This document shows positions 17,569 through 58,422 of a stretch of 64,000 nt of DNA, one piece after another. Within the stretch, counting starts at the first letter, position 1. The number at the start of each line of letters is the position of its first letter. The DNA lies in NCBI RefSeq assembly GCF_000308295.2, contig NZ_HG326652.1, forward strand, positions 2,849,931 to 2,913,930, written 5' to 3'. The DNA is from Afipia birgiae 34632 (GTDB lineage: Bacteria > Pseudomonadota > Alphaproteobacteria > Rhizobiales > Xanthobacteraceae). The translations under genes were made by a program, and so were the position numbers. Below the pieces are notes generated by a model. That model was not told the origin of the DNA, made no database searches, and was given only the letters and a program-made list of their open reading frames with translations.

Positions 17569-17613
17569 TGGTAGCGAGAGAGGGACTCGAACCCCCGACC
17601 CCAGGATTATGAT
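17569..17613 (-). other. 3' half of a tRNA-Met (CAT) gene, probable attachment site
   Basis: On the minus strand the sequence runs TCATAATCCTGG, then a T-arm (GGGGGTTCGAGTCCC) and the acceptor end with an encoded CCA. The 5' half of the tRNA is missing: upstream bases cannot form the anticodon 5' stem. Such 3' tRNA fragments are the att repeats left by integration. Its orientation implies that the element lies to the right, with the intact tRNA at the far end, which I do not find in this window. Confidence 0.7.
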
Positions 17614-17781
17614 GACCCGCCTTTTATGGTCTAGGAGCCTCACTGGCTCACTTCGCGGCGTTTTTTCTCAAAAAATGGTGGAGACCCCATTCCTTGGGGC
17701 TGGAATCCGGTCCGATTCCTCGGTTTCGTTGGCACGAGCGTGGTACGATTGCCGCGAAATTCCAATTTCAAGGATTCAATT

Positions 17782-19296
17782 GTGGCCGCTAACAAGTTTT
17801 CCACGAGGTGCGACCTCACCGCCAAGGTCGTCGAGGAAGCCATTGCACTGGCGATCGCAGGCAAGACCCCGCGATTCGACTATTGCGACAACAGCCAGCC
17901 CTACTTCGTGCTGAGGGTTCGGGCTCACTCCCTCTCCTGGCTGGTCAAGACCCGGGAGAACAGCATCAAGATCGGCAACGCCATGCCGCCGGAGAAGCGC
18001 AAACGCCTGCCTGAACGTCGCATGCGGGCAAGCAAGGTGGGCGATGAGGATCTCGGGCTCCGTGAGGCCCGCCAGAGGGCCAAGCTCGAATGGGCCAAGC
18101 TGGGCAACGAGGTCGCCGCGCCAGAAGAGAAGCCGTGCTGGACTTGGGACCAGCTCGTCGAAGCGTACAAGACCCACATCTCAGGCATGCGCGAGGACGC
18201 CCGCGGCCAGCCCATCTACCCATCGAAAGAGACCCACAGCGATGTCCGGTTGATCTTCGCTCGTCTGGGGGTGGCCAAACACGCGAACAGACTTCTCAAC
18301 GACCTGGACGAACACTGGTTCGAGGACGTCCAAGAGGCTGTCCACGAGGCGAGCGGATTTGACGCGTACCGAAAGTTTCGCAGCTACGGACGGGCGGCAT
18401 TGAATTGGGCGCAGAAGTTCAAACGAAAGGAGAGCGGCCTGGACGGCCGGCAATGGTGGAAACTGGCTGAGGAGCGGAGGCGCACCTCGAAGGAAGTCGA
18501 AAAGAAGCTCGTCCGGACCAAGGAGCTCAAGAAGAAGAAGTCCGACTTCAGGGTCGAGCATCTCGGCAAGCTTCTGGCCCAGCATGAGCGCTTCTGTCTT
18601 GCACGCGTCGGCAATGAGCGCATTTCGCCCGGTGTGCGATGGGGCTTATGGTGGGACTGCCTGACCGGACATCGGCGGGGATCCGGTACGTGGATTGCTT
18701 ACGACGATATCGTCTTCGAGGACCCTCGCCTTCCGAAAGGCTGGGGACTGGCGACCTGGCAGCCGGAAGTCATGAAAACACAGAACGCCTTTACTCTTCC
18801 GATCCCACCGCTCGGACTTCATATCATCCGCTGCTGCCGACGGGATGTCGATACGGCGACCGCTCGCATCGTCAAGAACCTCAAAAGTCCCTGGATCTTC
18901 ACTTCGAGGGTGCTTCAATCCGATGCCGGCATCATCCCCGCTTCAGGCTCCGGCCTAGCGAACCACATTCGAAACATGCGCGGTCAGCGTGCTAAACATG
19001 GCGGCAATCATCGGGATACTCTCAAGGGCATCCCGCCATTCAGCATGCACATTATCCGCTCCACGATGGGAAATTATATCCTTGATGAAACGGATCTCCC
19101 TCGAGGCGTGGCCTCGCTCATAATCGCCCATGAAATTGCGGGCGACCACAGGTCAGAAATGGACCGCGTCGGCGATACGGGAAAGCGCTGGTACTTCCAG
19201 GCGCAGCGCATCCCCGAAAAGACCAAAGGAATGGAGCTGTGGTCGAAAGCCCTTCTAGAGGCTTTCGATAACGCAGGAGGCATCTATCCGACGTGA
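17782..19296 (+). CDS. Tyrosine recombinase (phage-type integrase) of a genomic island
   Basis: A site-specific recombinase of about 504 residues adjacent to the tRNA-Met fragment. The C-terminal catalytic domain shows the first Arg in LTGHRRGSGTW near residue 294, the HxxR box in SMHIIRSTMG near residue 423 and the nucleophilic Tyr in KRWYFQAQ near residue 471. Residues 20-110 form an arm/SAM-like part and a charged KKK-rich linker lies near residue 250. It is longer than most integrases (350-420 residues). I use the GTG at 17782, preceded by AAGGA; an in-frame GTG lies 14 codons earlier. It probably mobilised the island that begins here. Confidence 0.88.
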   Translation: MAANKFSTRCDLTAKVVEEAIALAIAGKTPRFDYCDNSQPYFVLRVRAHSLSWLVKTRENSIKIGNAMPPEKRKRLPERRMRASKVGDEDLGLREARQRAKLEWAKLGNEVAAPEEKPCWTWDQLVEAYKTHISGMREDARGQPIYPSKETHSDVRLIFARLGVAKHANRLLNDLDEHWFEDVQEAVHEASGFDAYRKFRSYGRAALNWAQKFKRKESGLDGRQWWKLAEERRRTSKEVEKKLVRTKELKKKKSDFRVEHLGKLLAQHERFCLARVGNERISPGVRWGLWWDCLTGHRRGSGTWIAYDDIVFEDPRLPKGWGLATWQPEVMKTQNAFTLPIPPLGLHIIRCCRRDVDTATARIVKNLKSPWIFTSRVLQSDAGIIPASGSGLANHIRNMRGQRAKHGGNHRDTLKGIPPFSMHIIRSTMGNYILDETDLPRGVASLIIAHEIAGDHRSEMDRVGDTGKRWYFQAQRIPEKTKGMELWSKALLEAFDNAGGIYPT

Positions 19297-19380
19297 CCGT
19301 TCGCCGCGTGTCTGACGTTAAGTGGAAGCCTAGATAGCAACATCACTTTGGTCGGACCGAGCGCATTCATCAATATATAG

Positions 19381-19417
19381 CTATACGTCAAAGCGTATTA
19401 TACGCCATAACGTATAG
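19381..19417. promoter_or_regulatory. Array of CGTATA half-sites, operator before the first XRE gene
   Basis: CTATACG (19381-19387) and CGTATAG (19411-19417) form the outer inverted repeat, and GCGTATTATACGC (19393-19405) an inner perfect palindrome. The array overlaps the expected promoter of the XRE gene at 19452. The same TATACG unit recurs at 20309-20330. Confidence 0.6.
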
Positions 19418-19451
19418 AAAGTCTCTTGCCCGCGATGCTTGATCGCGGCGG

Positions 19452-19685
19452 ATGGCCAAGGAACCAAGAAATTCGCCACGTAGCGTTCTGGCACGTAACG
19501 TCAGACGGCTTCGGCTTGAGCGCGGCTATTCCCAGGAGGAACTCGCTGCCGAGGCCAAGACAAGGCAGGCTCTCGTAAGCAAGGTCGAAGTCAGCGACGC
19601 AAATCCCACGCTCGATTCGCTCGCACGTCTGGCACGGGCTCTGGGCGTGGACTTAGCCGAACTTTTCGATGCGTCCCGCAAGTGA
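19452..19685 (+). CDS. XRE-family transcriptional regulator, island copy 1
   Basis: A 77-residue protein that is almost only a helix-turn-helix of the Cro/CI type: LARNVRRLRLERGYSQEELAAEAKTRQALVSKVE, then NPTLDSLARLARALGVDLAELF. It resembles small controller proteins and antitoxin-type repressors. It is close in sequence to the second XRE protein 270 bases downstream, so the pair arose by duplication. The CGTATA operators just upstream suggest autoregulation. It lies between the integrase and the AAA-protease module; whether it controls excision or the module is not shown. Confidence 0.85.
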   Translation: MAKEPRNSPRSVLARNVRRLRLERGYSQEELAAEAKTRQALVSKVEVSDANPTLDSLARLARALGVDLAELFDASRK

Positions 19686-19960
19686 GCGGAGCAGATGAAA
19701 CGCCGGCGTTGTGGGCGAGCGCGCCGACTACTTCCGATTTGCATCAGCCGCGAGACTTATGCACCTCCAAAGGTCACGAGCCACAAGCAGCGCGCACCAC
19801 ATTACATAGGCCACCGATCTGCGCGTAGCTGCGTTGATCACCCCCGCGCGAATCCTTGCCTCCATCGGGGGTAGCGGGAGCTTTTGAAGCATGCCAAGGT
19901 TGATGTGGCATGCTCCTACGTCGACTTCTCCGAAGACGCGTCAAGGATTCGACAGGAGCC

Positions 19961-20215
19961 ATGCCCAAACCTAAGTCCTTTCCGATGCGAAAAGCAGTCG
20001 ATGATATCGTCAAGGATACTTTCGGCCGAAAGGTAAGAGAACTTCGGCTTTCCTTGAGCATGTCACAGGCAGACTTGGCGGATAGGACGGAGACCCGTCA
20101 GGCGCTCATCAGTGAGATTGAGCGGGGAGAAGCCAACCCGACGCTCGATTCGATCCTGCGGATCGCAACAGCCTTGGGAGTCGAGGTGGTCGAGCTTTTT
20201 GACTCACGTCAATGA
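19961..20215 (+). CDS. XRE-family transcriptional regulator, island copy 2
   Basis: An 84-residue helix-turn-helix protein with a basic N-terminal extension of about 18 residues. The core VRELRLSLSMSQADLADRTETRQALISEIERG and NPTLDSILRIATALGVEVVELF is clearly paralogous to the XRE protein at 19452. The start at 19961 follows AGGAG; the frame extends 17 codons upstream but without a ribosome-binding site. About 95 bases after it lies a second TATACG-type palindrome in front of the TnsA-like and AAA-protease genes. The two regulators may act on these operators with different strength. Confidence 0.85.
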   Translation: MPKPKSFPMRKAVDDIVKDTFGRKVRELRLSLSMSQADLADRTETRQALISEIERGEANPTLDSILRIATALGVEVVELFDSRQ

Positions 20216-20308
20216 TGAAGCTGGATTGATAGTAGGCGGAGCCCGTCTCCGCCGAGCCGACCTAAATCCGTCCCAAAACTTTTAGCGCCATATCTTTGAC
20301 GTACTTTT

Positions 20309-20330
20309 GTTATACGTTATAGAGTATAAC
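20309..20330. promoter_or_regulatory. Palindromic operator before the TnsA-like/AAA-protease genes
   Basis: GTTATAC at 20309-20315 is repeated inverted as GTATAAC at 20324-20330 with an 8-base centre. It shares the TATACG/GTATA element with 19381-19417 and so probably binds one of the two XRE proteins. The stretch 20331-20586 after it has no convincing gene and may be a long leader. Confidence 0.55.
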
Positions 20331-20586
20331 GAGACTGCGAATTACGACGCATTTGATGCGGCTGACGATTTGACCCGGATTTGTCTTCGTCCTGATCACT
20401 GCAGAGGCGCCGCCTTTCGAATCCGATGTTCGGATTGTCGAAACGGCTGGACTCGTTAGTCCGAAACGCCACGGGCCTTTCCGGCCACCCTGATGGACGG
20501 CATCAGAACCGCCATTCTCACCTTTCAATCCCAGATCGATACGGACCCTTGAGCGTTCGAACTCCATGAAAGAAAGGATTACGCCG

Positions 20587-20847
20587 ATGTCCAGCAAACA
20601 CCCCCGCCCTGACGACATCTTCCGTGATCCGCAACTTCTTCAGGACATTGATCAATGCGCATCTCTCAACTTCGCCGTCAGACTGTCGTCCCGTCCTTCT
20701 TCGCGAGCTCCAAATGCAAGGTTGCGATTCCCCTACGCAACGTCCTTCTCCGCGACGCGCTCCAGCAAGCGAGCCTTGAGTCTTCGGTTCGGGCGATCAG
20801 CTATCGGAAGGCTACGGACTTACAAGGCCCGCCGGTCGCGCTTATAG
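20587..20847 (+). CDS. Uncertain small ORF overlapping the TnsA-like gene
   Basis: An 86-codon frame beginning MSSKHPRPDDIFRDPQ after AAAGGA. The first 22 residues look like a real N-terminus, but from about 20655 on the sequence is arginine/serine-rich and overlaps the better-supported TnsA-like frame. It may be a short leader peptide, or the true N-terminus of the next gene separated by a frameshift. I do not recognise it. Confidence 0.25.
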   Translation: MSSKHPRPDDIFRDPQLLQDIDQCASLNFAVRLSSRPSSRAPNARLRFPYATSFSATRSSKRALSLRFGRSAIGRLRTYKARRSRL

Positions 20848-21248
20848 GCGTGGTGATAGAAAGAGTGGACGGGAATTTTTTCCTCGCGGTTTGCGAGACG
20901 CGACCGAAGCGTAGCGACGAGGAACTCGCTCGCCTGGCAGAAGCGCTCGAAAGCAGCGGACTACGCTTGCTCGAACGGGACGCTCACGATATCAGACGCG
21001 AACCCTTGTTCTCCAACGCGCGCGCAGTCTGGTCGTATGAGCGCTATCATGTCCCACTCAAGGACAGGCTAAGGATAGCGGCCGCGCTCGCCGATGGTGG
21101 ACCGCAATCGTTCCTCGAGCTCGAAGATCGTGCTCGTCCATCGGGCGATATTATAGCGGCTGTGTGCGCTCTAGCCTGCGAAGACCTTGTGGAACTCAAC
21201 ATTCACGACTCTTATTTAGGTCCACGCACAATTGTGCGTGGACCTTGA
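20655..21248 (+). CDS. TnsA-like (degenerate nuclease fold) plus winged-helix protein
   Basis: A 197-residue protein. Residues 60-130 (VALIGVVIERVDGNFFLAVC...REPLFSNARAVW) resemble the TnsA-type PD-(D/E)XK fold, but the catalytic Asp and the QxK motif are not visible (ETRPKR is found there), so a nuclease would be inactive. Residues 135-185 (VPLKDRLRIAAALADGG...IIAAVCALACEDLVEL) read as a winged helix and match the C-terminal part of TnsA-type proteins. It precedes the AAA+ protease gene by 158 bases and follows the XRE operator. I infer an adaptor or DNA-binding role; the family call is tentative. Confidence 0.5.
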   Translation: MRISQLRRQTVVPSFFASSKCKVAIPLRNVLLRDALQQASLESSVRAISYRKATDLQGPPVALIGVVIERVDGNFFLAVCETRPKRSDEELARLAEALESSGLRLLERDAHDIRREPLFSNARAVWSYERYHVPLKDRLRIAAALADGGPQSFLELEDRARPSGDIIAAVCALACEDLVELNIHDSYLGPRTIVRGP

Positions 21249-21406
21249 GCAGGTTGGACCGGCTTCGCGAAATCTTGATGTGGATGTGAGGTTGGTGATG
21301 ACGCCGTCGATTGCAAGTTTGCGGCCAGGTGGAGGAAGCATTTCAGCCTGAGAGGCGAAAGTCGGCTTCACCCTTCCACCCTCGACCTTAATGAGGGGTA
21401 CCTCCC

Positions 21407-23869
21407 ATGGCACGTTTTCGCTGCCGCGCCTGCGGCGAAGAAAGCACTTTCGTCTACGATGGTCGCAAGGACTGCCCGAACTGCGGTGCTACCGACGTGC
21501 AGATCAAAGTGCACCTCTGGATCCTATCGGATCTGCATCTGGAATTGACCCGGGGCTGGGATCTGCCGTCCGGGGACACGCGTCCGAACTTCGACTTCAT
21601 GATCGTCGCAGGCGATCTGATTCCCCGCATGGAGCGCGGCGTTCGCTATTGCCTGCATGATCCAGCCCATCGCTCAATATCCAAAATTTTCTGGTCCGAA
21701 TGCCTGCTATCGCCGAGGAAAGCGGAGCCATTCGCTATCCACTTCGATCTGTTCGCGACGGACGTCGGTGGAGTAAGCTCGATGAATTCGCAAGTATCGG
21801 CTCCTCGCGATCTTCTCGCACGGGCCTACCTGGATATGTTGGCCTCCGAGGCTGGCACAAACAGCAGTCCACTCCTACGTAGCGGTAATCTTGACGATCC
21901 GATCGAGCGACTAATTGACGATTTGTCGAGGCCCCCAGAGTCTGAAGGTCGGACGTCGATCCGAGCTGACCTCGCAGCTGCTGCAGTGTTGGTCGCCCGC
22001 GCGATCGAGTCAGTAAGCGGACTCACCCGCGATCTGCGCCGAGGCTGTCCTGTCGTGTCGCTTGCCACCCATAGAGCCGAGGTAGTTTCCTTAGTTGAGC
22101 AGGTTCTAAAAGCCTGCGCTTTTGGCGCTGAAGCGACAGTGCTCAATGAACGAACCTTCAAAAGCGTCCACACCCATCCCGTGTTGCTGCTGGCCAGAGA
22201 CGGCACCTCCAAGGAGGACAAAGCGGAACGAGGAAATCACACTGTTGCAAGCGCGCTGCACGCCCGCGCACCCATCTTCGGCATCGCACCTGATCCGAAT
22301 CGTCATTTGGCGCGCGATCTCCTTCGGGCGGCGGAACACCATCTTTCCCTGAGTCAGCTCGATGCCTCCGCCATCGCGCTGGTGATCGAAGCCGTCACAG
22401 GGAGGCCTCCCAGCGTAACGGTGGACGAACAACTCGTTCGGGCCGTCGATATTTCAGACCTTGCCCTGTCGGTTCGATCAGATCGAACGGCAGATGATTG
22501 TATCAAACGACTCGAAAGGATCGTTTCGACGAAGTCTTTCTTTGACCATCGTGGTCCAAGCTTAGAAGAGCTTGCCGGCTACGGCGAGGCGCGCGAATGG
22601 GGTCTCAATCTTGTTTCCGATCTGCGTGAATACCGAGCGGGCCGCCTTGATTGGGAATCTATGGAAAAAGGCTTGCTCTTGGCTGGCGCCCCTGGCGTAG
22701 GCAAGACACAATTTGCCCGAGCGGTAGCGAAGTCTGCAAATGTGCCCTTGATAGCGACGTCTGTCGCCGATTGGAATGCATCTGCCTATCTTTCGGGTAC
22801 ATTGGTCGCAATCAAAGAGTCGTTCTCGCGGGCGCGACAGCTCGCGCCCTGCATATTATTCATCGACGAACTGGATGGGATATCTGATCGAGCAACTCTG
22901 ACCTCCGACTACAGGGAGTATTGGACACAGATCGTCAATCTTCTTTTGGAGCAATTAGCTGGGGTCGAAGATCGTCCCGGCGTGGTCGTGATCGGAGCAA
23001 CCAATCACCCCGACCATATCGATCCTGCGATACGGCGCGCAGGACGTCTCGATCGCACGATCGAGATCGGGCTACCTGATGCCGAGAACCTGACGGCCAT
23101 CTTCCGCTTTCACCTCGGTGGAGATGTCCTGCCCAGAGTCGATTTGATGCCGGCCGCCCTCGCAGCGTTAGGTAAGACCGGTGCAGATGTCGAGGCGTGG
23201 GTCCGACGGGCGAAGTCACGTGCCCGCCGCGCCAAGCAAGACCTCGTATTCGACGATCTACTTTACGAGATCCGGTCCGGGCGGGAAGGATTGCCGGAAA
23301 GCCTCAGGCGGATCTGTTCAGTCCACGAAGCCGGACACCTCGTCGTAGGCGTCGCTTTGGCTGTGTTCGAGCCTCAGGCGCTGACGATTCTCGATGATGG
23401 CGGCGCCACCCGCGCTGAACTTTCGCGAGCCAATTCGCAAACTCAGAGCGGCATTGAAAACTTCATCACCGCACTTCTTAGCGGGCGGGCCTCCGAAGAA
23501 ATCATCCTCGGCTCTTCGCAGGCAACTGCAGGAGCAGGCGTTGGGGAGCATAGCGATTCTTCGCGAGCCACCACTGCGGCGATCGACCTAGAGCTATGTT
23601 TTGGCTTCGGAGCGATTGGCGTGGCGCGGTTTTCAGATCGTGCCACAGAGATGTTATTGCATGATGCCTCAATTGTTGGCCTGATCACGAAACGCTTAGC
23701 TCGCTGCCATGCGCGAGCACGCGAACTCATCGCGGCGAACCGGCAGTCAGTCGAAGCCGTGGCACGCCTTTTGGAACAGACGGGGTATCTGGATCGAGCC
23801 GCCATTGACGAACTCTTGAAAAGGTATCCGGTGCGAAATGTGGCGGCAGATGATGGGGCGCTCAAATGA
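21407..23869 (+). CDS. FtsH-like AAA+ M41 metalloprotease with N-terminal zinc ribbon and truncated metallophosphoesterase
   Basis: An 820-residue protein. Residues 6-26 hold a zinc ribbon (C6, C9, C23, C26). Residues 38-75 are the start of a calcineurin-like phosphoesterase (ILSDLHLEL, VAGDL) that breaks off before the GNHE motif. From about 126 a helical region follows, then an AAA+ domain with Walker A GAPGVGKT near 426, Walker B CILFIDELDG near 481 and the RAGRLDR arginine-finger region, and an M41 peptidase domain with the zinc motif HEAGH at 640-644 and the family segment GRASEEIILG. No FtsH-type transmembrane helices are visible, so it is probably cytosolic. A Met at 126 (base 21782) with GGAG upstream may be the ancestral start, the first part being an in-frame fusion from a deletion. 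It should unfold and degrade proteins. Confidence 0.82.
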   Translation: MARFRCRACGEESTFVYDGRKDCPNCGATDVQIKVHLWILSDLHLELTRGWDLPSGDTRPNFDFMIVAGDLIPRMERGVRYCLHDPAHRSISKIFWSECLLSPRKAEPFAIHFDLFATDVGGVSSMNSQVSAPRDLLARAYLDMLASEAGTNSSPLLRSGNLDDPIERLIDDLSRPPESEGRTSIRADLAAAAVLVARAIESVSGLTRDLRRGCPVVSLATHRAEVVSLVEQVLKACAFGAEATVLNERTFKSVHTHPVLLLARDGTSKEDKAERGNHTVASALHARAPIFGIAPDPNRHLARDLLRAAEHHLSLSQLDASAIALVIEAVTGRPPSVTVDEQLVRAVDISDLALSVRSDRTADDCIKRLERIVSTKSFFDHRGPSLEELAGYGEAREWGLNLVSDLREYRAGRLDWESMEKGLLLAGAPGVGKTQFARAVAKSANVPLIATSVADWNASAYLSGTLVAIKESFSRARQLAPCILFIDELDGISDRATLTSDYREYWTQIVNLLLEQLAGVEDRPGVVVIGATNHPDHIDPAIRRAGRLDRTIEIGLPDAENLTAIFRFHLGGDVLPRVDLMPAALAALGKTGADVEAWVRRAKSRARRAKQDLVFDDLLYEIRSGREGLPESLRRICSVHEAGHLVVGVALAVFEPQALTILDDGGATRAELSRANSQTQSGIENFITALLSGRASEEIILGSSQATAGAGVGEHSDSSRATTAAIDLELCFGFGAIGVARFSDRATEMLLHDASIVGLITKRLARCHARARELIAANRQSVEAVARLLEQTGYLDRAAIDELLKRYPVRNVAADDGALK

Positions 23870-24138
23870 TCAAAGTGACGATCGAAATCATCCCCGGCGG
23901 TTACGCCGAGGCCCGACGCACGATCGGGCTCATGCATGTCGCCAACATCTCTAATCTTGCGCGGCGGAGCGATTACCGGGTCGATCTTACGGAAGGAGAG
24001 AATCCCCTAGCCGGTACGAAGTCGTTCACCTGCACCGTTTACGTGCGCGATCATGACCGTAACCAGAGCGTCTGGTCGCTAATTGAGAAAGCCATCGCCG
24101 CGGCAAAGGGCGCGGAGTTCGACCGCGGCTCGGGATAA
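23866..24138 (+). CDS. Small protein coupled to the AAA+ protease
   Basis: A 90-residue soluble protein beginning MIKVTIEIIPGG; its ATG overlaps the protease stop codon (ATGA), so translation is coupled. The pattern of alternating strands (RVDLTEGENP, KSFTCTVYVRDHDR) with a C-terminal helix (SLIEKAIAAAKGA) suggests a compact alpha/beta fold. I do not recognise a family. Tight coupling suggests it works with the protease as an adaptor, inhibitor or substrate. Confidence 0.75.
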   Translation: MIKVTIEIIPGGYAEARRTIGLMHVANISNLARRSDYRVDLTEGENPLAGTKSFTCTVYVRDHDRNQSVWSLIEKAIAAAKGAEFDRGSG

Positions 24139-24337: not shown

Positions 24338-24508
24338 ATGTCCGCCGAAAAGCAGGGTAAGCTCAGGCTGATTGAGGGAGGCGCTGGAGAAGTCAAACCT
24401 CCAGTGGAGCAGCAACCCATGCCGAGGTGGCAATGGGTCGTCCTCTGGATCGGAAGCATAGCGATCTGGTTTTTGCTTTTCTATTATTTTTGGCTGGTAA
24501 TACGATAA
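24338..24508 (+). CDS. Small single-pass membrane protein
   Basis: A 56-residue protein: an N-terminal charged part (MSAEKQGKLRLIEGG), a Pro-rich linker and one strong C-terminal membrane helix (WVVLWIGSIAIWFLLFYYFW). ATG 24338 follows AGGGG. It resembles small orphan membrane proteins common in Bradyrhizobium-type genomes but I cannot name a family. About 200 bases separate it from the protease module, so co-expression is uncertain. Confidence 0.55.
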   Translation: MSAEKQGKLRLIEGGAGEVKPPVEQQPMPRWQWVVLWIGSIAIWFLLFYYFWLVIR

Positions 24509-24641: not shown

Positions 24642-25169
24642 GTGTCGAACGATCAAGGACCGCGCCTGTCTGAAGCAGCAAAAGTGCTTCCGCGCCTCGG
24701 CAAGTCACGCTTTGCGCCGGCCAACCGACGGCGGCTCAGCGCCCCTGCTTTGCGTACTTTCCTCGCCATTGCGGATCTATGGGGGTTGACTGGCGAGCAA
24801 CGTCTCTTGATCCTCGGCTATCCGTCTCGATCCACATATCACAAGTGGTGCAAGCAGGCTCGAGAGCACGGCGACTTTACTCTCGATGTCGACGTCCTCA
24901 CACGAATTTCCACAGTACTCGGGATCCATCAGGGTCTCGGAATTCTGTTCCCAACGGAGCAACTTGGCGTCGAGTGGCTGCGAACCCCGCACAACGCCAT
25001 CATCTTCGGCAGGCGACCGCCCATACATCTGGCGACCAGCGGTTCACAGGACGGATTGCTCACGGTGCGGCGCTTCCTCGACGGCGCCCTAGGCGGTCTC
25101 TACATGCAGCCGAACACTATTGACGAGGCGTTTATGCCGTACGACGACGCGGAAATCGTCTTCCGGTAA
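24642..25169 (+). CDS. Antitoxin of the Xre/MbcA/ParS type (DUF2384), toxin partner not seen
   Basis: A 175-residue protein. Residues 30-75 form an Xre-like helical DNA-binding domain (RTFLAIADLWGLTGEQRLLILGYPSRSTYHKW) and residues 100-150 the toxin-binding domain with the family features WLRTPHNAIIFGRRPPIHLA and the final MRRFL-type helix. In this class the gene downstream normally encodes a RES-domain toxin that consumes NAD+. Here the following 370 bases show no RES reading frame, so the antitoxin is either an orphan or the toxin has been lost. A C-terminal tail of about 20 residues extends past the usual end. The start is a GTG after AGAGG. Confidence 0.75.
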   Translation: MSNDQGPRLSEAAKVLPRLGKSRFAPANRRRLSAPALRTFLAIADLWGLTGEQRLLILGYPSRSTYHKWCKQAREHGDFTLDVDVLTRISTVLGIHQGLGILFPTEQLGVEWLRTPHNAIIFGRRPPIHLATSGSQDGLLTVRRFLDGALGGLYMQPNTIDEAFMPYDDAEIVFR

Positions 25170-25542: not shown

Positions 25543-26711
25543 ATGAAACGCTGGAGCATCGCAGCGATTGTAGGGCTGTGTTTTTTTGGCTGTTGGAACG
25601 ACTTAGCGAACGCTCAATCCAAACTGAATTTCGATGAGAAAATTGCCGCGCTTGACGCGTGGACCATTGGTTATAACCGTGCGAGCAGCAGTTGTTTGAC
25701 AACCGCCACTTACGGCGATGAAACCACGGTTTGGATTGGTCTGGACGATGATGAAGTTTATTTAGCACTAACGAACCCCAACTGGCAGTCCATTCAGGAA
25801 GGCAAGCAGTACCGCATCCGTATCGCGTCGCTTGCTGGCACCCGATGGCAGGGCAATTTCGATGGTATCAGTCGAGGCCAAGAAAAGGGTGTGATTTCGG
25901 GTGGTCTTAAGGAGAATTTCGTCAAAGAACTAATCCGAACCCCCGGAATTGCGGTCTACCTCGGATCGACCCTTATAGCGAAACTCAATCTCGATGGATC
26001 GCCAGCCGCATTTGGCGCGATGTGGACTGTCATTCGAGTCGAAACCCTGGCTCGTCGCAAAAGGCAGGTAGGAGCGTTGGCAAGGTCGTCAGCAGCGGCA
26101 CCGGCTTTATTGTTTCCCAGCAAGGCCACATCCTTACCAACAACCATGTCGTTGAATCCTGTGGCGACTTAGAGATCGAACAAGCTGGGCAACCCAGAGT
26201 TCGCGGAACTGCCCTCGCTAGAGACAAGGTGAATGATCTGGCGGTTCTCAAAACCAGCCTCGAACCAAAAAATGTCACCGCCCTAAGGACCGGTTTGCGG
26301 GTTGGGGAGAATATTGCAGTTTATGGTTTCCCTTTATCCAACCGGTTGGCAGCCACAGGCAACTTCACAGTCGGATACGTGAGCGCCCTCGCCGGATTAG
26401 GCGACGACAGTTCAAAGATTCAAATCTCGGCACCAATCCAACCAGGCAATAGCGGTGGTCCTGTGCTTGACCACTATGGAAACGCGGTTGGCGTGATCGT
26501 TTCTACTGCCACATCTGCGATAATTGCCGACCGCTCAGGCGTCGCTCCTCAGAATATCAACTTCGCAATAAAGGCGAACATCGTAAGGAGCTTTCTTGAT
26601 GCAAACGGCATTCAGGCCGACAGCCCACCCCAAACCACTAAAATCTATGAATTCGCGGATTTGGCAGAGAGAGCAAGGCTAACCACCGTTAAAATTCTTT
26701 GTGAAAAATAG
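25543..26711 (+). pseudogene. Trypsin-like (S1C) secreted serine protease split by a frameshift
   Basis: The first frame (25543 to about 26020) encodes a signal peptide (ending NDLANAQ) and a domain of about 150 residues with IASLAGTRWQGNF. A second frame, shifted near 26020, encodes the protease domain: the active His in LTNNHVVE, Asp in KVNDLAVLK and Ser in QPGNSGGPVLD, ending at 26711. Joined, they give a periplasmic protein of about 390 residues. The catalytic triad is intact, so loss is recent, or the base is an assembly error. The second frame alone lacks a signal peptide. Confidence 0.7.
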
Positions 26712-57277: not shown

Positions 57278-58114
57278 CTACTGCATCGCTGCGCTCCGAT
57301 CCAGATGCTGCAGTGTCGGCGCCGATGTTTGCGGTGCCGGCGGCCGGTAGCTCAGAGATGAGTGCGGTCGGATCGTGTTGAAGTGCTTGCGCCATTGCTC
57401 GATGACGACGGTAGCCTCCTTTAGGCTGTAAAAGATTTCACCGTTCAGGCATTCGTCGCGCAGTTTGCCGTTGAAGGACTCGCAGTAGCCGTTTTCCCAT
57501 GGGCTGCCGGGCGCAATGTAGAGCGTCTTTGCTCCGAGCTTTCCGAACCAGCTGCGCACGATCTTGGCCGTCATCTCCGCGCCGTTGTCCGACCGGATGT
57601 GCTCAGGGACGCCTTTAGCAAGCATCACATCGGCCATGGTGTCGATGACGCCGAAGCTGTTGATGCGACGTGCAACCCTGATCGCCAGGCATTCCCTGGT
57701 AAACTCGTCGATCAGCGTCATGAGCCGGAGCTTACGGCCATCATGGGTCTGCGCCTCGACGAAGTCGTAGCTCCAGACATGGTTACGATGCTGCGGCCGC
57801 AAACGGATGCAGGATCCGTCGTTGAGCCACAGCCGGCCGCGCGGTCGCTGTTTGCTGGGTACTTTTAGCCCCTCACGGCGCCAGATCCGCTGGACCCGAT
57901 CACACCCGACCTGCCAGCCGGCATCGACCAGCAGCGACGTGATCCGACGATAGCCATATCGCCCATATTGGGACGCAAGAGAGATAATCGCTCTCGTCAA
58001 CGCATCCTCATCAGATCGAACGATGGTGGTGTATCGCTGTGTTCCGCGGTGCTGGCCGACGATCCGGCAGGCTTGGCGTTCCGAGAGACCATACTTCCCT
58101 CGAATGCCCTCCAC
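57278..58114 (-). CDS. IS3-family transposase, catalytic part (OrfB)
   Basis: A 278-residue rve-type integrase domain. The DDE residues are visible: Asp in [15 protein letters not shown] near 120, Asp in [13 protein letters not shown] near 175 and Glu in [14 protein letters not shown] near 212. The start shown is the first ATG of the frame; in this family the true protein is an OrfAB fusion made by a -1 frameshift from the upstream frame. All catalytic residues are kept, so it may be active. Confidence 0.92.
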
Positions 58115-58137
58115 CGCCTGCCGTCGCCGCTCAGGGC

Positions 58138-58422
58138 TTATAAGTTTCCCGAGGCAACGTCCTTGAGCACCTGCTTCTCAAGCGACACATCGGCGACGAG
58201 ACGCTTGAGGCGGACATTCTCCCGCTCCAGATCCTTCATCCGCTTCGCCTGATCGAGCTCAAGGCCACCGTATTCCTTCCGCCAGCGATAATAACTCTGC
58301 TGCGAAATTCCGGCTTCCCGACAGGCCACCGGCGCTGCCTTGCCCTGCGACATCAATACTTCAATCTGGCGCAGCAGCACCACGATCTGCTCCGCATTAA
58401 ACCTCTTCTTCGGCATGACCAA
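58138..58422 (-). CDS. IS3-family transposase, DNA-binding part (OrfA)
   Basis: A 94-residue helix-turn-helix protein ([40 protein letters not shown]) followed by a leucine-zipper-like coiled coil ([22 protein letters not shown]). This is the OrfA of the IS407 group, which binds the inverted repeats. It precedes OrfB in the usual way. Confidence 0.92.

Follow-up and report, generated by a model that had tools for sequence, protein, structure and literature searches.

A 64-kb stretch of the Afipia birgiae 34632 genome (hereafter the window) carries, beside a putative integrase, a gene for a TnsA-derived protein that has lost its nuclease triad (tAl, or dead TnsA) followed by a gene for an AAA+ M41 protease, and relatives of this pair recur next to the tns operons of Tn7-like transposons. 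Our preferred reading, to which we assign a probability of roughly 0.4, is that they belong to a portable proteolysis module which rides with Tn7-like transposons and in which dead TnsA brings Tns proteins to the protease. An earlier note on this DNA had proposed a module without a known name, made up of two XRE regulators, a degenerate TnsA-like protein, an AAA+ M41 protease and a 90-residue protein (p90). All genes it named were found in place, consecutive and on the + strand beside the putative integrase, and no paper in the literature searched describes the module. That search, which left most subscription papers outside, turned up no Tn7-like elements with an M41/FtsH-type protease module; a term search of the accessible part of PMC8649781 gave no occurrence, and in that of PMC10293859 protease appears solely as a reagent. 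Within the literature searched, the gene set and its fixed place by tns are new, and the mechanism is one that we infer.

The descent of the TnsA-like protein was assessed with profiles. A hidden Markov model (HMM) built from TnsA encoded beside tns genes matched the window protein at 1.6e-8 among 8724 open reading frames (ORFs), profile-to-profile comparison (hhalign) of the TnsA-like set with TnsA scored 98.2% (E 4e-14, 179 columns), and a related TnsA alignment matched the Tn7 TnsA structures 1f1z and 1t0f at 4e-7; the TnsA-like profile itself gave no credible match in the PDB. By these comparisons the protein is a TnsA homologue over both domains, with homology over about 180 columns that include the C-terminal half. 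Unlike the TnsA endonuclease, it has lost the catalytic E, D and K (L, G and C stand in their places), and its gene adjoins the protease, outside the tns operon; in tns loci dead TnsA comes in addition to the operon TnsA. Not one of 35 TnsA-like rows retains all three residues together (E in 2, D in 11, K in 1), compared with E in 35, D in 39 and K in 35 of 45 TnsA rows, which bears out the earlier description of the protein as degenerate. The C-terminal domain was more conserved than the nuclease domain in 83% of dead-TnsA pairs versus 43% in TnsA, five partial rows having been dropped. Since cutting has been lost and the C-terminal domain retained, the best reading of dead TnsA is as a binding component.

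In a quick TnsA tree the dead copies fell on one side of a branch (1 change, support 74). They form two subfamilies, often in tandem before the protease; the window copy belongs to the upstream one. This single branch side and the two, often tandem, subfamilies led us to reject recent decay of a local TnsA. Across 276 genomes of the family (row G374 left out), TnsA-like matches mostly adjoined the protease, with three solitary relics (L261, L263 and L265). As a separate observation, the operon TnsA of six loci (L106, L137, L139, L141, L149 and L235) has lost the catalytic E and K, and D in some; because of this loss, the transposons of that clade may transpose by a replicative route.

The survey of relatives covered 297 genomes from the order and 296 from the family, with the best few candidates per genome scored and a protease threshold of E ≤1e-100. 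Matches were obtained in 16 and 42 genomes, respectively, own genome included. Within the genus, 25 of 29 genomes matched at 1e-50 and 6 of 29 held matches that clearly exceed the housekeeping FtsH level. Because so few genomes match (16/297, 42/296, and 6/29 in the genus), the module has the patchy distribution of mobile genes. Sixty-nine loci chosen by protease (60 stretches, the window and eight earlier loci; rows G366, G567 and G525, later L266, L256 and L251, were left out) were then clustered without labels. The clusters contained a metallophosphoesterase (34 loci), a divergent small HTH gene (29), a 180-aa family without a Pfam match (27), DUF6634 (25), TnsB (25), TnsC (22), TniQ (19), TnsA (19, plus 7 in a second TnsA cluster) and the TnsA-like protein (19). 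Pfam named TniQ, TniB, Metallophos and DUF6634 among the members tested, with Mu-transpos_C just below its cut-off; no paper on DUF6634 was found in the literature searched. Usual members besides the protease therefore include the metallophosphoesterase (truncated in the window), often a second dead TnsA, and DUF6634 proteins. The co-occurrence outside this genome on which the earlier note had staked its proposal was found; p90 is restricted to few loci (7/69), with homologues in L010, L115, L116, L117, L118 and L150, and also in L240, L242, L243 and L244; it had no plasmid match at E 1e-5. The neighbourhood search added a frequent partner that the note had not listed, a Tn7-like tns operon, present in 25 of the 69 protease-chosen loci and accompanied by the protease in 8 of 10 TnsA-chosen loci.

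A Tn7-like transposon is defined in the accessible part of PMC11406308 as TnsB and TnsC plus TnsA and/or TniQ, and association with such elements was measured in two ways. A TnsB profile, built from protease-linked TnsB and therefore biased, found 31 loci (E ≤7e-80) in 292 genomes; the protease was adjacent in 21 (L133 with a split protease, L247 cut by a contig end and G476 placed by coordinates alone), a remnant in 1 and 11 kb away in 1. The independent scan with Pfam TnsA (PF08722) across 288 genomes gave 15 matches and 10 assessable TnsABC loci after exclusion of G344, G345 and G370 (≤0.3 kb from a contig end) and of G377 and G337 (3.9-kb contig), which show no TnsB. In 8 of the 10, the protease lies directly upstream of tnsA, with p90 or dead TnsA between them in some. 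Of the 36 loci that have TnsB as well as the protease, 33 carry protease and tns genes in the same direction (P 2e-7). Measured between stop-to-stop frames, protease and tnsA are 147-1935 bp apart in all but L005 (3.3 kb) and L249 (10.3 kb). Gene-by-gene maps of seven loci show that the genes farther upstream vary.

The same genome holds a second copy of the module in such a setting (L010, C1:1352000-1371000). Its order is regulators, a small gene of the 180-aa family, a full-length metallophosphoesterase, protease, p90, TnsA-like, TnsA, TnsB and TnsC, with TnsA, TnsB and TnsC in a row (TnsA also matching PF08722), so that L010 counts as a Tn7-like transposon by the definition above. Identity to the window copy is 74% for the protease, 47% for p90 and 33% for the TnsA-like protein. 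TnsB of this copy (L010, 14042-17744) is broken by an IS3-type insertion, recognized by eye, and because of this interruption the transposon is probably immobile. A decayed third copy on contig C4 (L011, 8000-10000) consists of XRE, the last ~100 protease residues and two p90 stretches. In an empty-site test of L108 at gyrB, the TniQ-side end was found directly after the gyrB stop and the far end was not found. Pairs of a 12-bp repeat, A[AC]TGAGT[CG]TA[CT][AG], lie 20 bp apart after the gyrB stop in L108 (880-930) and L111 (1290-1335); these seem to be the TniQ-side end of a Tn7-like element that lands at gyrB. As the far end was not located, residence of the module within these two transposons is likely rather than proven. 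A search of four elements for terminal inverted repeats gave none that were convincing.

The AAA+ M41 assignment of the protease stood (Table 1). The 820-codon frame is probably not the protease gene. The start is most likely 21782, not 21407: GGAG precedes the ATG at 21782, and the alignment of the L010 paralogue begins there. The 125 codons before it comprise a zinc-ribbon-like stretch, residues 1-45 of a metallophosphoesterase (67-69% identical to those of the full-length L010 enzyme) and 44 further codons that could not be assigned. Two sister islands, L115 and L116, carry the full-length metallophosphoesterase as a 262-aa gene. The window is collinear with L115 over 17569-21237 (91%) and 21808-24137 (90%), and ~1.6 kb is absent in the window between the two blocks. 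Six aligned proteases share invariant ATPase and protease motifs (Walker A/B, GRLDR region, HEAGH, distal Asp), so that the enzyme is expected to be active and driven by ATP; it would presumably work as a hexamer.

The module protease resembles FtsH in fusing an AAA+ motor to an M41 domain, with a match to NCBIfam TIGR01241 at frame residues 420-795 of 820 (E 2.8e-50), and it possesses the active-site motifs of both domains. Its score of 171.7 bits lies below the family cut-off of 600, and it has an N-terminal stretch of its own of ~260 residues. No membrane anchor was seen, as the earlier note had held: its top 19-residue hydropathy, with no dedicated predictor run, is 1.70 (residue 511, beside HEAGH) versus 2.68 at residue 7 in the separate housekeeping FtsH of the same genome, to which it is ~29-31% identical. 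The protease is accordingly described here as probably soluble. A model of its N-terminal domain reached pLDDT 62, with AAA+ domains as best PDB neighbours (Z ≤6.8) and no Foldseek match at E ≤0.001, a weak hint that this domain may be a degenerate AAA+ domain.

Both XRE regulators named in the earlier note matched Pfam HTH_3, and a 20-bp palindrome (≤3 mismatches) occurs at three window sites and in 0 of 100 shuffles. The trio recurs at matching places in L115 and L116, and weaker palindromes lie near the XRE and TnsA-like genes of L119 and L260. The shared operators that the note had also proposed are real.

From these parts the following mechanism can be proposed. Dead TnsA would keep the partner-binding side of TnsA and bind the protease, serving as adaptor or decoy for TnsA, TnsB or TnsC, singly or complexed on DNA, and the AAA+ M41 protease would unfold and cut whatever dead TnsA delivers. 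The XRE pair with its shared operators would hold the module off until needed. Within a Tn7-like transposon the post-insertion complex might be dismantled, as host ClpX is thought to do, or transposition might be held low; on an integrase island such as that of the window, incoming Tn7-like elements might be shut out. ClpX acts on the MuA transposition complex, and the proposed job is analogous to its work on MuA and Tn7-like transposases, an AAA+ unfoldase dismantling a transposition complex; ClpX is, however, a host protein, whereas the module motor is mobile, of M41 type and provided with a transposase-derived partner. In phage-assisted selection in E. coli, according to the accessible part of PMC12326709, deletion of clpX made phage with a Tn7-like TnsB variant propagate ~200-fold less, and removal of the post-transposition complex is the ClpX role proposed there. 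Delivery of Tns proteins to the protease is favoured because dead TnsA reads as a binding part and because ClpX has been reported for Tn7-like TnsB.

Co-divergence was examined with Mantel tests (rank correlation of distances; rows L249, L132, L252 and L095 were dropped, as were short fragments). Two blocks emerged. Within the tns block, rho ranged from 0.70 to 0.82 (TnsA-TnsB 0.70, TnsB-TniQ 0.79, TnsB-TnsC 0.82). Within the module block it was 0.55 for dead TnsA and protease (0.70 in tns loci) and 0.48 for p90 and protease. The metallophosphoesterase is a loose member, because its co-divergence with the protease is weak (0.19, and -0.04 within tns loci). Counter to full independence of the blocks, dead TnsA correlated with TnsA (0.43) and TnsC (0.28, P 0.01), and where dead TnsA, protease and TnsB all occur (16 loci) the protease-TnsB rho was 0.34 (P 0.006). 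For dead TnsA and TnsB, a first run with L010 dropped gave 0.75 (n=8), and 17 loci gave 0.20 (P 0.03).

Selection was estimated between the window and its sister islands. The dN/dS ratio was 0.12 for the protease, 0.24-0.29 for dead TnsA, ~0.4 for p90 and 0-0.07 for xre1, by which the window module is under purifying selection on an island without tnsABC. Given the low dN/dS and the absence of tnsABC from these islands, dead TnsA remains under selection there although the islands offer it no tns operon to serve; the window genome itself does have the tns operon of L010, with its broken tnsB.

Several results weigh against the proposed delivery of Tns proteins. Across the blocks, the protease showed rho of only 0.07 with TnsB (P 0.13), 0.11 with TnsC (P 0.08) and 0.09 with TniQ (P 0.15), and a weak 0.15 with TnsA (P 0.01), giving little sign of a tuned protease-tns pairing. 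The dead TnsA model, at pLDDT 34, is unusable, and the TnsC region that contacts TnsA in Tn7 is said in the accessible part of PMC11406308 to be missing in many Tn7-like elements. The stretches read of the window and its sister islands contain no tnsABC. Of the 69 protease loci, 34, some of which are cut by contig or stretch ends (in L142 and L148, TnsB lies just outside), showed no TnsB and no dead TnsA in the stretch read; dead TnsA is absent from 16 of the 36 loci with TnsB and protease, and outside the order TnsB occurred in 0 of 11 protease loci. The protease is missing from 8 of the 31 TnsB loci, two of which (L239 and L246) have DUF6634 and HTH genes nearby in the opposite direction. 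Some module loci also adjoin defence genes.

The Mantel correlations did not support the candidate reading of the protease as a core transposition subunit co-evolving with TnsB; in L117 and L118, for example, the proteases are 89% identical and TnsB 38%. Because the link between the two co-diverging blocks is weak, the module reads as a portable cassette repeatedly placed beside tns operons. By these distances it is swapped among differing Tn7-like transposons at the same landing place, and traces of a shared history persist. The islands free of tns and the low correlation of the protease with TnsB agree better with action on transposition proteins generally, those of other elements among them, than with a fine-tuned pairing, and they agree with plain defence cargo as well.

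Defence cargo is the main rival, and we regard it as a serious if tentative possibility. Sensors would activate the protease, which would kill the cell or destroy invader proteins of phages or plasmids, with dead TnsA as a DNA or protein sensor, the metallophosphoesterase as a nucleotide or nucleic-acid enzyme and tns as a favoured slot. The swapping of the cassette between transposons in cargo fashion and the 34 loci without TnsB and dead TnsA suit this explanation. So do the surroundings of several protease relatives: a CD-NTase-like protein in L114 (by eye), an annotated KwaB-like protein and an S8 peptidase/ATP-binding pair resembling IetAS in L009, a TIR protein in L007 and, in L122, a DEDDh exonuclease at an integrase and dusA-like gene (by eye). 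Among PADLOC models the AAA domain is nearest IetA (4e-25), and IetAS is alike in being an AAA+ ATPase that works with a protease. The IetS of that system is a separate subtilisin-like protease, whereas the module has M41 in the same chain, and no IetS-like partner was found among the ten genes scanned (17.7-26.7 kb), the trypsin-type gene at 26022 belonging to other families. No PADLOC model fitted dead TnsA, p90 or the DUF6634 proteins tested. Also counting against defence cargo are the difficulty of explaining a TnsA derivative as a phage sensor and the fixed, codirectional place by tnsA where tns is present (33/36), with the genes farther upstream varying in the seven loci mapped.

Element maintenance or addiction appears improbable. 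Here the protease would degrade a labile regulator or antitoxin (XRE or Xre/MbcA/ParS), and thereby control excision or post-segregational killing. The two XRE regulators with their shared operators suit such a scheme, and an Xre/MbcA/ParS-type gene lies near in the window and in L005, L010, L014, L115-L118 and L150; such an antitoxin-like gene is nevertheless present in just 9 of the 69 loci, none of the ten window genes scanned exceeded the cut-off of a toxin family, and the scheme has no use for dead TnsA. A general stress protease hitch-hiking on mobile elements, with dead TnsA as a relic, would suit the loci without dead TnsA and TnsB and the 11 of 11 outside the order without TnsB, and is less probable still given the dN/dS of dead TnsA and protease on an island without tnsABC and given that dead TnsA, which lies on one side of a tree branch and co-diverges with the protease, is no fresh relic.

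The features of the locus are collected in Table 1. Since the 3' part of tRNA-Met stands at the junction and is followed by the integrase, the window copy sits on a tRNA-Met island; ARAGORN found no tRNA within the window, an intact tRNA-Met(CAT) copy is present elsewhere in this genome, on contig C4, and a matching junction was seen by eye in L115. The integrase had no match in Pfam, NCBIfam, PADLOC or PHROG, and its His-Arg and Tyr motifs were judged against what we take to be the tyrosine-type pattern. It is 94% and 90% identical in the sister islands (dN/dS 0.11-0.17). XRE regulator 1 is 100% identical in L115 and 98.7% in L116; XRE regulator 2, whose start is uncertain (a candidate ATG lies at 19961), shares 70% identity across 64 residues with a contig C4 copy. 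The start-stop overlap that the earlier note had placed at the end of the module is present between the protease and p90. Neither p90 nor the TnsA-like protein had a match in Pfam, NCBIfam or PADLOC (E ≤0.1), or in PHROGs (E ≤0.01). The Xre/MbcA/ParS-type regulator has an 83% identical copy in L010.

Table 1 Features of the module locus, in window positions
Feature	Position	Strand	Evidence
3' part of tRNA-Met (attachment-site side of integrase island)	17569-17613	-	45 bp identical to tRNA-Met(CAT), contig C4
Putative tyrosine-type integrase, 518 aa	17740-19296	+	His-Arg and Tyr motifs by eye
Two overlapping 20-bp operator-like palindromes before xre1	19381-19400 and 19398-19417	.	Palindrome search
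XRE regulator 1 (xre1), 77 aa	19452-19685	+	Pfam HTH_3 2.4e-14
XRE regulator 2, ORF of 101 aa	19910-20215	+	Pfam HTH_3 5.3e-14
Third operator-like palindrome, before TnsA-like gene	20310-20329	.	Palindrome search
TnsA-derived protein without nuclease triad (tAl, dead TnsA), 197 aa	20655-21248	+	TnsA HMM, profile-profile comparison
Remnant: zinc-ribbon-like stretch and first ~45 aa of metallophosphoesterase	21407-21649	+	Comparison with L010, L115 and L116
AAA+ M41 open frame, 820 codons	21407-23869	+	
AAA+ M41 protease, predicted soluble, 695 aa	21782-23869	+	Pfam AAA 1.5e-31, Peptidase_M41 3.5e-9
90-residue protein (p90)	23866-24138	+	ATG overlaps protease TGA
Small protein, hydrophobic C-terminus, loosely associated	24338-24508	+	68% identical over 57 residues to L010 copy
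Xre/MbcA/ParS-type antitoxin-like regulator, loosely associated	24642-25169	+	Pfam Xre-like-HTH 2.8e-7, Xre_MbcA_ParS_C 1.1e-6

Across the 64-kb window, TnsC and TniQ HMMs gave no match, and TnsA-type HMMs gave no operon-type TnsA, the dead copy being the sole TnsA-family gene, so that the locus falls outside the definition of a Tn7-like transposon given above. The TnsB HMM gave one weak match, at 57281-58177 (E 6e-5), 33 kb off. That gene is probably another integrase-core transposase. The sister genomes G483 and G556 had no TnsB match at 1e-60.

Farther afield, a Bosea plasmid row comprises protease, small protein, metallophosphoesterase, DUF6634, Xre/MbcA/ParS, TnsA, a Mu-type transposase and an AAA ATPase. 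AAA and M41 are annotated as two genes in L006 (4879-7436) and in the plasmid matches H9, H20, H21, H23, H24, H28 and H29. Loci L122-L131 form a different group, mostly with HTH, 180-aa-family, metallophosphoesterase and protease genes and often an exonuclease-like gene; L122 adjoins the integrase and dusA-like gene mentioned above. A scan of genome contigs gave at least 28 loci, with two clear full-family relatives among the matches listed (L013 and L014), and a viral scan gave at least 39, mostly ATPase-domain matches, of which L156 extends well into the protease domain.

To our knowledge, the dismantling of Tn7-like complexes and the mutual exclusion of such elements are open questions. The module might represent a dedicated transposition-policing protease on mobile elements of an alphaproteobacterial group (probably Hyphomicrobiales), a remodeller and copy-number brake in transposons and an exclusion system against Tn7-like transposons on tRNA integrase islands, although we consider this broader role rather unlikely at present. 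According to the accessible part of PMC12326709, CRISPR-associated transposases depend on host ClpX, a protein toxic to human cells, and this hampers them as tools. If our preferred reading holds, an unfoldase-protease that is linked to transposons and paired with a transposase-derived protein would offer a natural factor dedicated to dismantling Tn7-like complexes.

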